In this document: one piece after another, positions 19,144 through 26,879 of the stretch
Numbering within the stretch: the first letter of the stretch is position 1
Layout: each line of letters begins with the position of its first letter
NCBI GenBank assembly: GCA_020343535.1
Contig: CP070799.1
Location: 1,690,207-1,723,874 of the forward strand
Direction of reading: 5' to 3'
DNA: 33,668 bases
DNA from: Nitrospinaceae bacterium
GTDB lineage: Bacteria > Nitrospinota > Nitrospinia > Nitrospinales > VA-1
Position numbers and translations under genes: made by a program
Notes under the pieces: model-generated
Databases searched by the model: none
Told to the model about the DNA's origin: nothing
The model's input: only the letters and a program-made list of their open reading frames with translations

Positions 19144-20481
<1,338 letters not shown>

Positions 20482-20565
20482 TCCCGCCTGGCCGAAGGGG
20501 GCGCCTCCCGTAACGACCTGGATGAAAAAACGCGGCGCTTCTTAAGCGACCGCGGCATCCGCGCC

Positions 20566-20799
20566 GTGACCATCGACCTGGCTGAACTTTCTCCCAATTG
20601 CTGTGTCGGGCGGCTGCCCGACGTCCGCGTTCACCCCGGGCCGCCTGGCGACCCCGGCGCCTACCGGCATTTTCATGCCGGAGGTCTCGATATCCATGTC
20701 GCCAAGGGGTTGAATACCGAAAAAGCACTCAGGCTCTACCTCTCGGGCTGGGGGCCCTTCCATAAACTCGAGGTGTCCGGCCTGAACCTTTTTCTGTAG
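20566..20799 (+). CDS. Small CC/Se-motif-like (HesB-like) protein, start uncertain
   Basis: The minimal product from GTG 20566 is 77 residues: VTIDLAELSPNCCVGRLPDV, then a VHPGPPGDPGAYRHF segment, GGLDIHVAKGL and a final WGPFHKLEVSGLN. The CC pair followed by P-V, PxDPxxYR and GhxhhV is the pattern I associate with the CC/Se-motif family. Those proteins are small and IscA/HesB-like, and some members carry selenocysteine; here the position is cysteine. Family matches normally begin about 15 residues earlier, and the frame upstream reads DEKTRRFLSDRGIRA in line with that. It has no ATG, GTG or TTG between the purA stop and 20566; only CTG at 20518 would serve. One extra A in the six-A run at 20525-20530 would join ATG 20522 to this frame. 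Function is unknown. Confidence 0.6.
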   Translation: MTIDLAELSPNCCVGRLPDVRVHPGPPGDPGAYRHFHAGGLDIHVAKGLNTEKALRLYLSGWGPFHKLEVSGLNLFL

Positions 20800-20875
20800 C
20801 TCGGGAACTGGACACGCGGCCCGCAAGCCAGCATGCCTCCGTTGCCGTCGATGTCTTCCGCCATGGTTTGATCGG

Positions 20876-20905
20876 CCGGCTGGGCGCGCCGGAGTTTTCT
20901 TTTTT
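20876..20905 (+). terminator. Candidate rho-independent terminator after the purA operon
   Basis: CCGGC (20876-20880) pairs with GCCGG (20888-20892). A TTTTCTTTTTT tract follows (20895-20905). The stem is only 5 bp but all G/C. Confidence 0.55.
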
Positions 20906-20924
20906 ATATGTTATGGATTGGGAC

Positions 20925-20930
20925 TATAAT
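20925..20930 (+). promoter_or_regulatory. Candidate -10 box for cstA
   Basis: A perfect TATAAT is located 63 bases upstream of the cstA ATG, in an AT-rich pocket. The -35 region 17 bases upstream (TTTTAT) is poor, which would fit an activator-dependent promoter. A GCCCC/GGGGC hairpin (20955-20969) follows in the predicted leader. Confidence 0.45.
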
Positions 20931-20992
20931 GAGAATATATCACATGATGGTCCCGCCCCCGTGCGGGGCATAAACCGATCCTCTCCTGACCG

Positions 20993-22702
20993 ATGCTGAC
21001 GATATTCATCCTGATTTTTTCCTGTTTGTTTTTTTATTTCATCGGCTACCGCTATTACGCGGGCCGGCTCGACCGCGAAGTCATTCAGCCAGACGCCGGC
21101 CGCGCGACCCCCGCCGGCGGTCAGCGGGACGGCGTCGATTACGTTCCCAGCAAGCCGCTTGTTTTATTCGGCCATAACTTCGCCTCCATCGCCGGAGCGG
21201 GGCCAATTATAGGGCCGATCATCGCCATGCATCATTTTGGCTGGGCGCTCACTCTGGTCTGGGTGCTCATCGGCAACGTGTTCATCGGCGCGGTGCACGA
21301 TTACCTGACGTTGATGGTTTCGGTGAGGCATCGCGGCAGTTCCATCGCCGACATCGCCGAGGGCACCATGGGCGGCCGCGCCAAGGCGGTATTTGCCGTC
21401 TTTCTGGTTCTCGCCATGCTGCTGGTGGTGGCCGTTTTCGGGGTGGTTGCGGCGAAGACGCTCATCGCCCAGCCGGAGATGGTGTTCCCGACGTTCGCGA
21501 TCATTCCCATTTCCATGGTCCTTGGCTGGTTCGTTTACCAGAAAAACGGCAACTTGGTCGCGTCGTCGCTGATCGCGGTTTTTGCGGTGGTGGTCTCTAT
21601 CTATGTCGGGTTCAAGCTGCCCGTTCCCCTGCCCGAGGAAGGCCTCCTCGGGTTTTCGCCGCTCATGTTCTGGTTTGTGGTGCTGATGGTTTACGCGGCG
21701 GTGGCCTCGGTGCTGCCGGTGCAGGTGCTTCTGCAGCCGCGCGACTACCTGTCCACCTATATTCTGTTTGGCTCGATGGCGCTCGGCATGCTCGGCCTGT
21801 TGTGGGTGCATCCGGAGATCAACACGCCCGCCTATCGCGGCCTGATGTCCGAGGGGCAGGGGCCGGTGTGGCCGATGCTGTTCGTCCTGGTGGCGTGCGG
21901 CGCGGTTTCCGGGTTTCATTCCCTAGTCGCCGGCGGCACCACGTCGAAGCAGCTGGCGAGCGAAGCGCACGGCAAGCCTATCAGTTACGGCGGCATGCTG
22001 ACCGAGGGGGTAGTGGCAGTGGTCACCGTGCTCCTGGTCGGCGGCGGCCTGTTCTGGGTAGCCCCGGCCGGAGGCGGGGTCGACATGGCCACCCTTGGTT
22101 TTCGCGAGACGCTGAAATCCGGCGGCTGGATTCTGGCCTTTGGCAACGGGTTCGGCAACGTAGTGCACCAGATGCTGCCGGTGCTCAGCTTCACGTTTGC
22201 GTCGATGATCGCGGTGCTCGCGCTCAACACCTTCGTGTTGACCACGTTGGACACGGCGGTGCGCATCACCCGCTTCATCGTCCAGGAATCGGTGGGGCGC
22301 AAGGTCCCGGCGCTCGGGAACAAATACTGGGTCACCGCCGCCATCATCGTCCTTGCCTACCTGATCGGTGCGACCGAAGGCTGGCAGAAAATCTGGCCGA
22401 TTTTCGGTGCCACCAACCAGCTCATCGCGGCGGTGGCGCTGATGGTCGCCTCGACGTACCTGGTGGCGCGGCGCAAGCCGACGCATTTCACCCTGATCCC
22501 GGCCTTCTTCATGATCGTCACGACCATCGGCGCGCTCGGTTGGCAGGCGTACCGCTTTTTCACCGCCCCCGAGCCCCATCTGTTGCTCGGTGCGACGTCG
22601 CTGCTTCTGATCGGCCTTGCCCTGTTTGTCGCCAGCGAAGGCATGAAGGCCCTGCGCGGCGGCGCGGCGGCGCGCCTCACCCCGGCGCCGTCGGAAACCT
22701 AG
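20993..22702 (+). CDS. cstA: Carbon starvation protein CstA family transporter
   Basis: The 569-residue protein has about 16 hydrophobic segments. It carries the CstA signatures YRYYAGRLDREV, VDYVPSKPLVLFGHNFASIAGAGPIIGP, GNVFIGAVHDYLTLMVSVRHRG and, near the C-terminal third, WPIFGATNQLIAAVALM. CstA-family proteins import peptides or pyruvate and are induced on carbon starvation in enterobacteria; the substrate here is not known. Length is shorter than E. coli CstA (about 700) and resembles the shorter family branch. ATG at 20993 follows CTCTCCTGACCG with no strong ribosome site. It is flanked by terminator-like hairpins on both sides, so probably transcribed alone. Confidence 0.92.
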   Translation: MLTIFILIFSCLFFYFIGYRYYAGRLDREVIQPDAGRATPAGGQRDGVDYVPSKPLVLFGHNFASIAGAGPIIGPIIAMHHFGWALTLVWVLIGNVFIGAVHDYLTLMVSVRHRGSSIADIAEGTMGGRAKAVFAVFLVLAMLLVVAVFGVVAAKTLIAQPEMVFPTFAIIPISMVLGWFVYQKNGNLVASSLIAVFAVVVSIYVGFKLPVPLPEEGLLGFSPLMFWFVVLMVYAAVASVLPVQVLLQPRDYLSTYILFGSMALGMLGLLWVHPEINTPAYRGLMSEGQGPVWPMLFVLVACGAVSGFHSLVAGGTTSKQLASEAHGKPISYGGMLTEGVVAVVTVLLVGGGLFWVAPAGGGVDMATLGFRETLKSGGWILAFGNGFGNVVHQMLPVLSFTFASMIAVLALNTFVLTTLDTAVRITRFIVQESVGRKVPALGNKYWVTAAIIVLAYLIGATEGWQKIWPIFGATNQLIAAVALMVASTYLVARRKPTHFTLIPAFFMIVTTIGALGWQAYRFFTAPEPHLLLGATSLLLIGLALFVASEGMKALRGGAAARLTPAPSET

Positions 22703-24998: not shown

Positions 24999-25714
24999 GC
25001 CTGATCGAGATGCGGTCCATCAGCAAGGTCTACCGCAATATCGGTTTCGAGACCCAGGTGCTTCGCGGAATTTCCCTGGATATCGAAGAAGGGGAGTACG
25101 TCAGCATCATCGGTCCTTCCGGCGCGGGCAAGAGCACGCTGATGGCCATCATGGGCTGCCTCGCCCTGCCCACGGCGGGAACCTACGCCCTGGACGGCGA
25201 AGAAGTGCAGAGGATGAGCGACCGCCGGCTCTCGCGCGTGCGCAACGAGAAAATCGGTTTCGTCTTCCAGGCGTTTCATCTGCTGAAGGGGGTGCCGGCG
25301 ATCGACAACGTGATGATGCCGCTGATGTATTCGGAGCGCGTCCCTAAGGACGCCGCCCGCCGTGCCGAGGCGGCGCTCACGCGGGTGGGCCTCGGCCACC
25401 GCCTCCGCCACACTCCCGGCCAGCTTTCTGGCGGTGAGCAGCAGCGCGTGACCATCGCACGGGCGCTCATCACCCAGCCCCGTATCATCCTCGCCGACGA
25501 GCCCACCGGCAACCTCGACTCCAAAAATGGCGCGGAAATCATGGCCGCGTTTGATTTGTTGAACGCCGAGGGGACGACGATCATTCTCATCACGCACGAG
25601 CAGGAGGTGGCCCGGCACGCCAGCCGTATCATCACCTTGAAGGATGGATTGATTGAGACCGACAAGCGCTATGAGAATCTTCCGCAATCTGAGACAGGCC
25701 CTCCGCGGGCTTAG
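24995..25714 (+). CDS. ABC transporter ATP-binding protein (MacB/LolD type)
   Basis: The 239-residue ATPase has Walker A GPSGAGKST (40-48), Q-loop VFQAFHLL, ABC signature LSGGEQQRV (144-152), Walker B IILADEP (164-170), D-loop NLDS and H-loop ITHEQ. The sequence is typical of the MacB/LolD/FtsE clade that powers FtsX-fold permeases. Translation is probably coupled to the adaptor gene (ATGA at 24995-24998). Its last 44 bases overlap the first permease gene. The exported substrate is unknown; macrolides, lipoproteins or peptides are known for relatives. Confidence 0.93.
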   Translation: MSLIEMRSISKVYRNIGFETQVLRGISLDIEEGEYVSIIGPSGAGKSTLMAIMGCLALPTAGTYALDGEEVQRMSDRRLSRVRNEKIGFVFQAFHLLKGVPAIDNVMMPLMYSERVPKDAARRAEAALTRVGLGHRLRHTPGQLSGGEQQRVTIARALITQPRIILADEPTGNLDSKNGAEIMAAFDLLNAEGTTIILITHEQEVARHASRIITLKDGLIETDKRYENLPQSETGPPRA

Positions 25715-26879
25715 GCAAAGCAAGGGCAACACCTTCCTGATGACGCTGGGCATTCTCATCGGGATCGGGTCGCTCACCATTATCGTCGCCATCGGCGAGG
25801 GCGCCAAGGCCAAGGTTCTGGAGCGGATCACCAATCTGGGCTTCGGTCCGGATTCCTTCTCGGTCATGGCGGGGGCGGGCCGCCTGTTCTTCGCCCGAAC
25901 CGATCAGCCCACCAGCATGACCCTGCAAGACGCCGACGACATCCGCGCCATGCCCACTGTGCGTTTCGTCGTGCCCCGGCAGCGGGTTTCCATGCAGGCG
26001 AAATACCGGGAGCGGTTTACCGAGACCCGTGTCTACGGCGTGACACCGGAATGGCAGGACGCGCGCGGCTGGGCGCTGGCGGACGGGTCGTTCTTCGGCG
26101 AAGATGCCATGGAGCGCAAGTAGCGGGTCATCGTGCTTGGGGCGACGCCGGCGAAAAAGCTGTTTGAAGGCGAGGACCCTATCGGGAAAAAAATCCGGCT
26201 CGGCCAGGTGAGCTTCGAGGTCGCCGGCCTATTGCAGGAGAAGGGGCTCACCGAAAGTGGTTACGACCCCGACGACCGGGCGCTGATTCCCCTTACCACC
26301 TCGATATCGCGCCTCCTTAATCAAACCCACCTCCACAGCATCAAGGTGGTGGCCGTGAGGCCCGACAAGGTGGCCGAGGTCATGCAGGCGGTGCGTCTGC
26401 TGCTGCGCCGCAACCACAACCTGTCGCCTCTCGCCGAGGATGATTTCCGCTTTGTCACTCCGGAGGGAATCATGCAGTGGGTCACTCGGTCGGAACAGGC
26501 GCTCAACCGGATGCTGATCCTGGTGTCGACGGTGTCCCTGCTGGTGGGGGGGATTGTCATCATGAATATCCTGTTGGTGTCGATTCGCGAGCGGGTTCGC
26601 GAGATCGGCATCCGCCGCTGTTTCGGCGCGCGCCGGTCCGACATCACCCAGCAGTTCCTGTTTGAGTCGGTGTTCGTGTCTCTCCTGGGCGGGGCGCTCG
26701 GTGTCGCCACGGGACTCGGGGTCTCCCTCCTGCTTGAGCGGCTGGATTTCCTGCCCGCACAGGTGACCTGGGAGCCCTTCGCGCTGGCTTTCGTTTTTTC
26801 AAGCCTTGTTGGGCTTGTTTTTGGCATTCAGCCGGCGCGCCAGGCGGCGCGGCTCAGCCCGGACGAAACCCTGCGATGA
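25671..26879 (+). pseudogene. First MacB/FtsX-type ABC permease, interrupted by an in-frame TAG
   Basis: The frame starts at ATG 25671 (MRIFRNLRQALRGL) with a first helix TFLMTLGILIGIGSLTIIVA and a MacB-type periplasmic domain. At 26121-26123 it reads TAG between AMERK and RVIVLGATPAKKLFEGEDPIGKK. It then continues in the same frame to 26879 through the rest of the periplasmic domain and three more helices (MLILVSTVSLLVGGIVIMNI and two C-terminal). Residues around the stop match the usual flow of the family (VVVLG..A..LFG..DPIGK). A single C-to-T change of a CAG would account for it. Without the stop the protein would be 402 residues, close to its neighbour. It is either a true nonsense mutation or a consensus error. 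Confidence 0.85.

Follow-up and report, generated by a model that had tools for sequence, protein, structure and literature searches.

Genes and features behind purA

The window, i.e. the whole stretch of 33,668 nucleotides analysed here (contig CP070799.1, positions 1,690,207 to 1,723,874, of a Nitrospinaceae bacterium, assembly GCA_020343535.1), displayed a small reading frame between purA and cstA. From stop to stop this frame spans 20482-20799 on the plus strand (105 codons), directly after the purA stop and in the same frame as purA. The closest copy was found at the same place behind purA in a genome of the same genus (G001, hereafter the sister), where it encodes a 71% identical protein (E 1.9e-45). 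Features considered below are the following:

19195..20481, plus strand: purA (adenylosuccinate synthase; NF002223, 589 bits), with stop TAA at 20479-20481
20495..20501, plus strand: Shine-Dalgarno sequence AAGGGGG (sister AAGGAGG), whose pairing site ends 3 nt before 20506, as in the sister
20506..20508, plus strand: TCC at the position of the lost start codon, where 12 of 12 relatives display ATG, GTG or TTG (sister ATG)
20506..20799, plus strand: CC/Se-family reading frame homologous to that of relatives, 97 codons and stop TAG
20518..20520, plus strand: CTG, according to a codon scan the only in-frame near-cognate start between the Shine-Dalgarno sequence and the conserved strand
20522..20545, plus strand: ATG proposed as start by a first-pass annotation, out of frame, 7 codons ending at 20545, with a six-A run at 20525-20530
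20599..20604, plus strand: CC motif, two cysteine codons (residues 32-33), invariant in 13 aligned copies
20800..20992, plus strand: spacer to cstA, 193 nt, exceeding that of the sister by about 130 nt, with TATAAT at 20925-20930
20993..22702, plus strand: cstA (carbon starvation protein), the next gene downstream (PF02554, 458.8 bits; 90% identical to the sister)

Identity with the sister was 73% over residues 2-97 of the CC protein and 89% for purA. Close relatives with names were Nitrospinaceae/Nitrospinae MAGs; 'Nitrospirae bacterium SZUA-350' is the name under which the nearest is recorded. Openness of the 105-codon frame was weak evidence when taken alone (116 of 2000 mononucleotide shuffles stayed open), while the comparison with relatives establishes its orthology at the sequence level. 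That the frame lacks an acceptable start, as claimed in the first-pass annotation, was confirmed: no in-frame ATG, GTG or TTG precedes 20566, and the only in-frame start-like codons within 20482-20570 are CTG 20488, CTG 20518, ATC 20557 and GTG 20566. Between 20482 and 20521, ATG, GTG and TTG were absent from all frames.

Family assignment and predicted fold

The initial assignment to the CC/Se motif family was upheld by a profile search. Translation of 20482-20796 matched NF041239, 'CC/Se motif family (seleno)protein' (Moor_selen_rel), with an E-value of 2.9e-10 and 40.1 bits for a cut-off of 40, residues 14-101 being aligned to positions 6-91 of the 91 of the profile. The membership score was thus reached but is borderline, as a run over the whole genome yielded 39.5 bits, slightly less than required; the sister scored 48.8 bits. 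All 13 aligned copies matched this profile at E up to 1 (best 3.3e-14), and the cysteine pair C32 C33 was invariant in all 13, as the family motif demands. The window protein therefore shares with NF041239 a match over nearly the whole model and the Cys-Cys motif; it differs by its cut-off-level score, by the cysteine form being the only one and by the lost start codon. A scan of a collection of genome contigs gave seven loci, one of which, in Streptomyces (33% over residues 4-52), was taken as a chance match; plasmids displayed no match.

The family is listed with motif CxxU in an excerpt of PMC13188914, which fits the suggestion that cysteine stands here where some relatives use selenocysteine. 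Within the phylum this suggestion found no counterpart: none of 16 NF041239-type matches across 77 genomes contained an internal stop, and a search of this genome for selA gave nothing, so that only the cysteine form was seen. Membership of NF041239 does not require selenocysteine, as the model covers the cysteine form. For the HesB family, named at the outset as a further search target, none of the 13 copies matched TIGR01911 (HesB-like selenoprotein) at E up to 1. Excerpts of PMC1794560 and PMC13188914 describe TIGR01911 as a small HesB-related family which likewise includes selenocysteine and cysteine forms; its listed motif UxGP (excerpt of PMC13188914) differs from the CC motif.

A structural model predicted for the window protein (20509-20796; seven sequences) reached a pLDDT of 79.6 and a pTM of 0.68. 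The best Foldseek match of this predicted model was E. coli IscA (1s98; probability 1.00, E 0.005, TM 0.59), and the first ten rows consisted of IscA, SufA and small proteins of the Fe-S-biosynthesis type (E 0.005 to 0.23). VIA-align gave a Z of 7.7, which lies in a range where unrelated folds and chance matches also score. The protein is accordingly predicted to fold like IscA/SufA, with its Cys-Cys pair located after the first strand, as is the first cysteine of the single PF01521 (Fe-S_biosyn) protein of this genome. This last correspondence stems from a non-significant hhalign alignment (P 0.34), in which the CC motif was placed opposite that cysteine.

Sequence similarity to these proteins was low. 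No Pfam family, and hence not PF01521, matched the window protein at E up to 1; PF01521 was found in one of the 13 copies only (E 0.0079), and a search of PDB sequences with the family profile gave nothing significant (best E 0.3). In IscA, the C-terminal CxC motif acts as a ligand. It is present in the genome's own PF01521 protein (CGCGE), whereas the window frame ends with NLFL at residue 97 and contains no cysteine after residue 33, so that the CxC of a third ligand is missing. A role of the intact protein as thiol, metal or Fe-S carrier can be put forward from the predicted fold; it is kept tentative because the protein is not a PF01521 member by sequence, the hhalign comparison was not significant and the C-terminal CxC is absent.

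Position of the lost start codon

Window and sister could be aligned without any gap over 20494-20796, with 30% mismatches overall. The sister ATG falls on the TCC at 20506-20508 (window 20505-20514 reads CTCCCGTAAC). The same start column was shared by 12 other Nitrospinota copies (5 ATG, 4 GTG and 3 TTG), i.e. those with a readable 5' end, their starts being picked from the alignment and the internally deleted copy of G058 and the fragment of G042 being left out. The window was the sole copy out of 13 without a canonical start at this column. A homologue clearly starting at 20566 had been named at the outset as an argument against a missing start; none of the 12 aligned homologues begins there. 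The claim of a missing start was thus correct, but its location at ATG 20522 was not, the homologous start lying upstream at 20506.

The Shine-Dalgarno sequence was preserved. Duplex energies were -11.0 kcal/mol in the window and -11.2 kcal/mol in the sister at equal spacing, calculated with the usual anti-Shine-Dalgarno sequence, and pairing was retained in the window despite an A-to-G change. The anti-Shine-Dalgarno motif itself was not found at the L078 locus, which holds 200 N near the sole 16S rRNA match of the genome (model positions 109-308). Of the two elements by which an expressed gene would be recognised, a start codon and a Shine-Dalgarno sequence at working distance, the second was kept while TCC occupies the place of the first. 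Since the alignment is free of gaps, the sister ATG lies on TCC, the Shine-Dalgarno sequence is kept and the frame is the same around the A run, the start codon is, on the evidence of the aligned sequences, one lost through substitution.

The first-pass annotation had instead proposed that one extra A in the run 20525-20530 would join ATG 20522 to the domain; a sequencing error, slippage or frameshifting could be its source. The six-A homopolymer does exist and is preceded by this ATG. However, the sister is gap-free through the run, and codons GAC-CTG-GAT-GAA-AAA are conserved in the protein frame of both (DLDEK), upstream of the run and through it. Relatives begin at 20506, before the run, and no pairing site in the 22 nt around ATG 20522 was better than -1.5 kcal/mol. 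An additional A is therefore unneeded, and its occurrence is considered very improbable.

A consensus error or a strain mixture, the organism itself having a normal start, was also weighed and is regarded as improbable. The genome record (2.53 Mb) has a completeness of 86.46% and seems to be scaffolded and devoid of a full 16S gene, as judged from the partial 16S match and the 200 N at L078; such a draft-like assembly would leave room for errors. An in-frame TAG in another conserved gene of the window points in the same direction. On the other hand, no fewer than two bases would have to change to give a start at 20506 and 7 of 10 nt differ in the same ten nucleotides, the codons ATG, GTG and TTG are lacking in every frame of the preceding stretch, and no frame break other than that TAG was recognised in window segments matching the sister contig. 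We infer that the loss of the start is probably real in the organism and that it would abolish translation.

The gene with the in-frame stop encodes a MacB-type permease (MacB_PCD and FtsX domains; window 25656-26876), in which TAG at 26121-26123 corresponds to CGC in the sister. Its flanks are still in frame and 86% identical to the sister. As a second window gene with a disrupted frame, it was also counted in favour of decay.

A quasi-palindrome template switch, producing an inverted copy of the Shine-Dalgarno sequence, was considered as cause of the start loss and is not claimed. The idea came from window GCCTCC being the inverse of sister GGAGGC. The 7-of-10 mismatch cluster near the start was equalled by another at 20533-20534, and the template motif search gave 3 matches for a shuffle mean of 3.45, i.e. 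chance. As the sister Shine-Dalgarno sequence also folds into a hairpin, the latter is not specific to the window.

Relation to purA and losses among relatives

Conservation of the purA neighbourhood, which had been suggested as a check, was found in all 12 copies with a readable 5' end: each lies downstream of purA, at -4 to +423 nt from its stop. Five of them share 4 nt with purA and are read in a different frame, the remaining ones being located 27 to 423 nt behind. The overlaps (L039, L040, L041, L042 and L025) read ATGA, GTGA or TTGA, and suggest from their sequence that translation of the two genes may be coupled in two other families of the order.

Readthrough of the purA stop, yielding a PurA fusion protein, had been another proposal for the missing start. 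The CC frame is in phase with purA in the window, G001 and G002; it is in a different frame in G003, G046, G057, G060, G061 and G062, and stops intervene between the two genes in G026 and G027. Relatives moreover possess start codons of their own. As neither frame nor spacing is constant between relatives, readthrough was rejected, and a fusion protein appears barely credible. By pinning the lost start to a single codon, the relatives remove the frameshift and fusion readings.

The CC gene displayed a scattered distribution. At E 1e-3 it was matched in 7 of 46 family genomes (no match in the other 39) and in 15 of 77 phylum genomes, many of these genomes being incomplete. purA was found in 40 of the 46, and 30 of these loci were read: four carry the CC gene, and in 28 cstA follows at a distance of no more than about 1.5 kb. 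The purA-cstA interval of G007, G029 and G030 contains a C-terminal fragment that resembles the last 13 to 26 residues and ends in a stop. Their E-values are weak (0.011, 0.002 and 0.008, respectively); the noise level is given by two matches at 0.028 and 0.036, which in other genomes fall within purA or upstream of it, and the two weakest relic matches are no stronger than these misplaced ones. It is their position between purA and cstA and the final stop, not the E-values, that make these relics credible, and on this footing remnants of the gene in relatives are taken as established. A fragment was also found on a short contig of G042.

Two further remnants were observed. In G058 (L044 1501-1652) an internally deleted CC gene, from which the CC motif is gone, is still located between purA and cstA. 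In G052 (L045 1501-1575) a second C-terminal fragment lies about 1.3 kb behind a full copy, upstream of cstA.

Expression or decay of the window gene

The gene is probably in early loss, as the start codon of its relatives is replaced by an ordinary codon in this genome. The interpretation regarded as fairly probable is that 20506-20799 is an IscA-fold gene, a cysteine form of NF041239, whose start was lost and which is now an early-stage pseudogene translated poorly or not at all. The ancestral state would have been a small gene downstream of purA in part of Nitrospinota, encoding a protein of predicted IscA/SufA fold with a Cys-Cys pair after the first strand. Substitutions would then have replaced the start codon at 20506-20508 by TCC, leaving ribosome-binding sequence and reading frame in place, with little or no translation at present. 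In other members of the order the same gene would have been deleted, truncated or lost. This explanation is plainer than the initial ones, an ordinary event being accounted for by a neat comparison, and the puzzling 'gene without a start' becomes a dated and testable case. The family seems to offer a decay series at one locus: intact, start lost, internally deleted, C-terminal stub and gone.

A gene that is alive and uses a non-canonical start is judged rather unlikely. Initiation would take place at CTG 20518, at CTG 20488, or inefficiently, possibly by reinitiation, near 20506 through the strong Shine-Dalgarno sequence. The frame is intact with a dN/dS of 0.13 between window and sister, the Shine-Dalgarno pairing outlived the A-to-G change, and starts are already weak in 7 of 12 relatives (GTG or TTG). 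A functional GTC start is described for Streptomyces sigR in an excerpt of PMC5472188. CTG 20518 may serve as initiation codon, as initially suggested, but the end of the only good Shine-Dalgarno sequence lies 15 nt upstream of it; CTG 20488 is preceded by a weak site only (16 nt upstream, -2.3 kcal/mol), so none of the candidates is well placed relative to a Shine-Dalgarno sequence. The protein sequence before 20506 is not conserved with the sister. Regarding reinitiation, 24 nt separate the purA stop from 20506, compared to a coupling almost wholly lost at about 20 nt according to an excerpt of PMC10666635. A functional gene starting at CTG 20518 or at or near TCC 20506, by which an IscA-fold thiol protein would deliberately be produced at a low level behind purA, is accordingly deemed quite unlikely. 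Were the frame expressed, translation would begin here without any of the accepted start codons, a rare and well-placed example.

Of 21 columns that are invariant in the other copies, three are altered in the window (M1S, R70N and K86H), which speaks against a functional gene. Treated in the same way, each other copy changes 0 to 2, the window thus displaying the most changes of all 13. The CC motif and ten other columns invariant in all 13 copies were retained. For the CC gene, polarisation with outgroups assigned 15 amino-acid changes to the window and 6 to the sister, compared to 52 and 61 for four neighbouring genes pooled (Fisher p 0.055). This asymmetry is borderline, and codons 1 and 3 are counted in it.

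How old an inactivation can be is limited by the intact frame, with no stop or indel across 97 codons, and by the low pairwise dN/dS (0.13 as given above, compared to 0.098 for purA, 0.108 for cstA and 0.22 for nfuA). With 21 one-step stop targets, a frame would stay free of nonsense changes with a probability of 0.50 after 0.1 neutral substitutions per site, and of 0.12 after 0.3. An inactivation of the gene could be young, since at the former value every second such frame would still lack a nonsense change. A codon-model branch test did not indicate relaxed selection on the window branch of the CC gene (2dlnL 0.01), the test being weak with synonymous sites near saturation. Higher omega values obtained by the same test on the window branch of purA, cstA and nfuA (2dlnL 6.7, 6.65 and 9.14, respectively, versus one ratio) were taken as a saturation effect.

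Silent divergence of the CC gene from the sister was about twice that of the four neighbouring genes. Four-fold sites differed at 28 of 44 positions (L026), compared to 219 of 673 in the neighbours (Fisher p 5.5e-5), and GC3 was 0.71 and 0.62 for the two CC genes and 0.77-0.86 for neighbours. Recombination, weaker codon selection or decay may account for this excess.

Spacer to cstA

The sequence of the spacer 20800-20992 occurs once in this genome. Its TATAAT at 20925-20930 was equalled in none of 200 shuffles. Nine relatives display an intact CC gene followed by cstA; in six of them (G001, G002, G003, G057, G060 and G062, not G026, G027 and G046) the best -10-like hexamer ahead of cstA coincides in part with the final codons or the stop of the CC gene. 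Single sites of this kind were not beyond chance, 14 to 67 of 200 shuffles being as good. Such a -10-like box in the 3' end of the CC gene may explain the survival of the C-terminal stubs.
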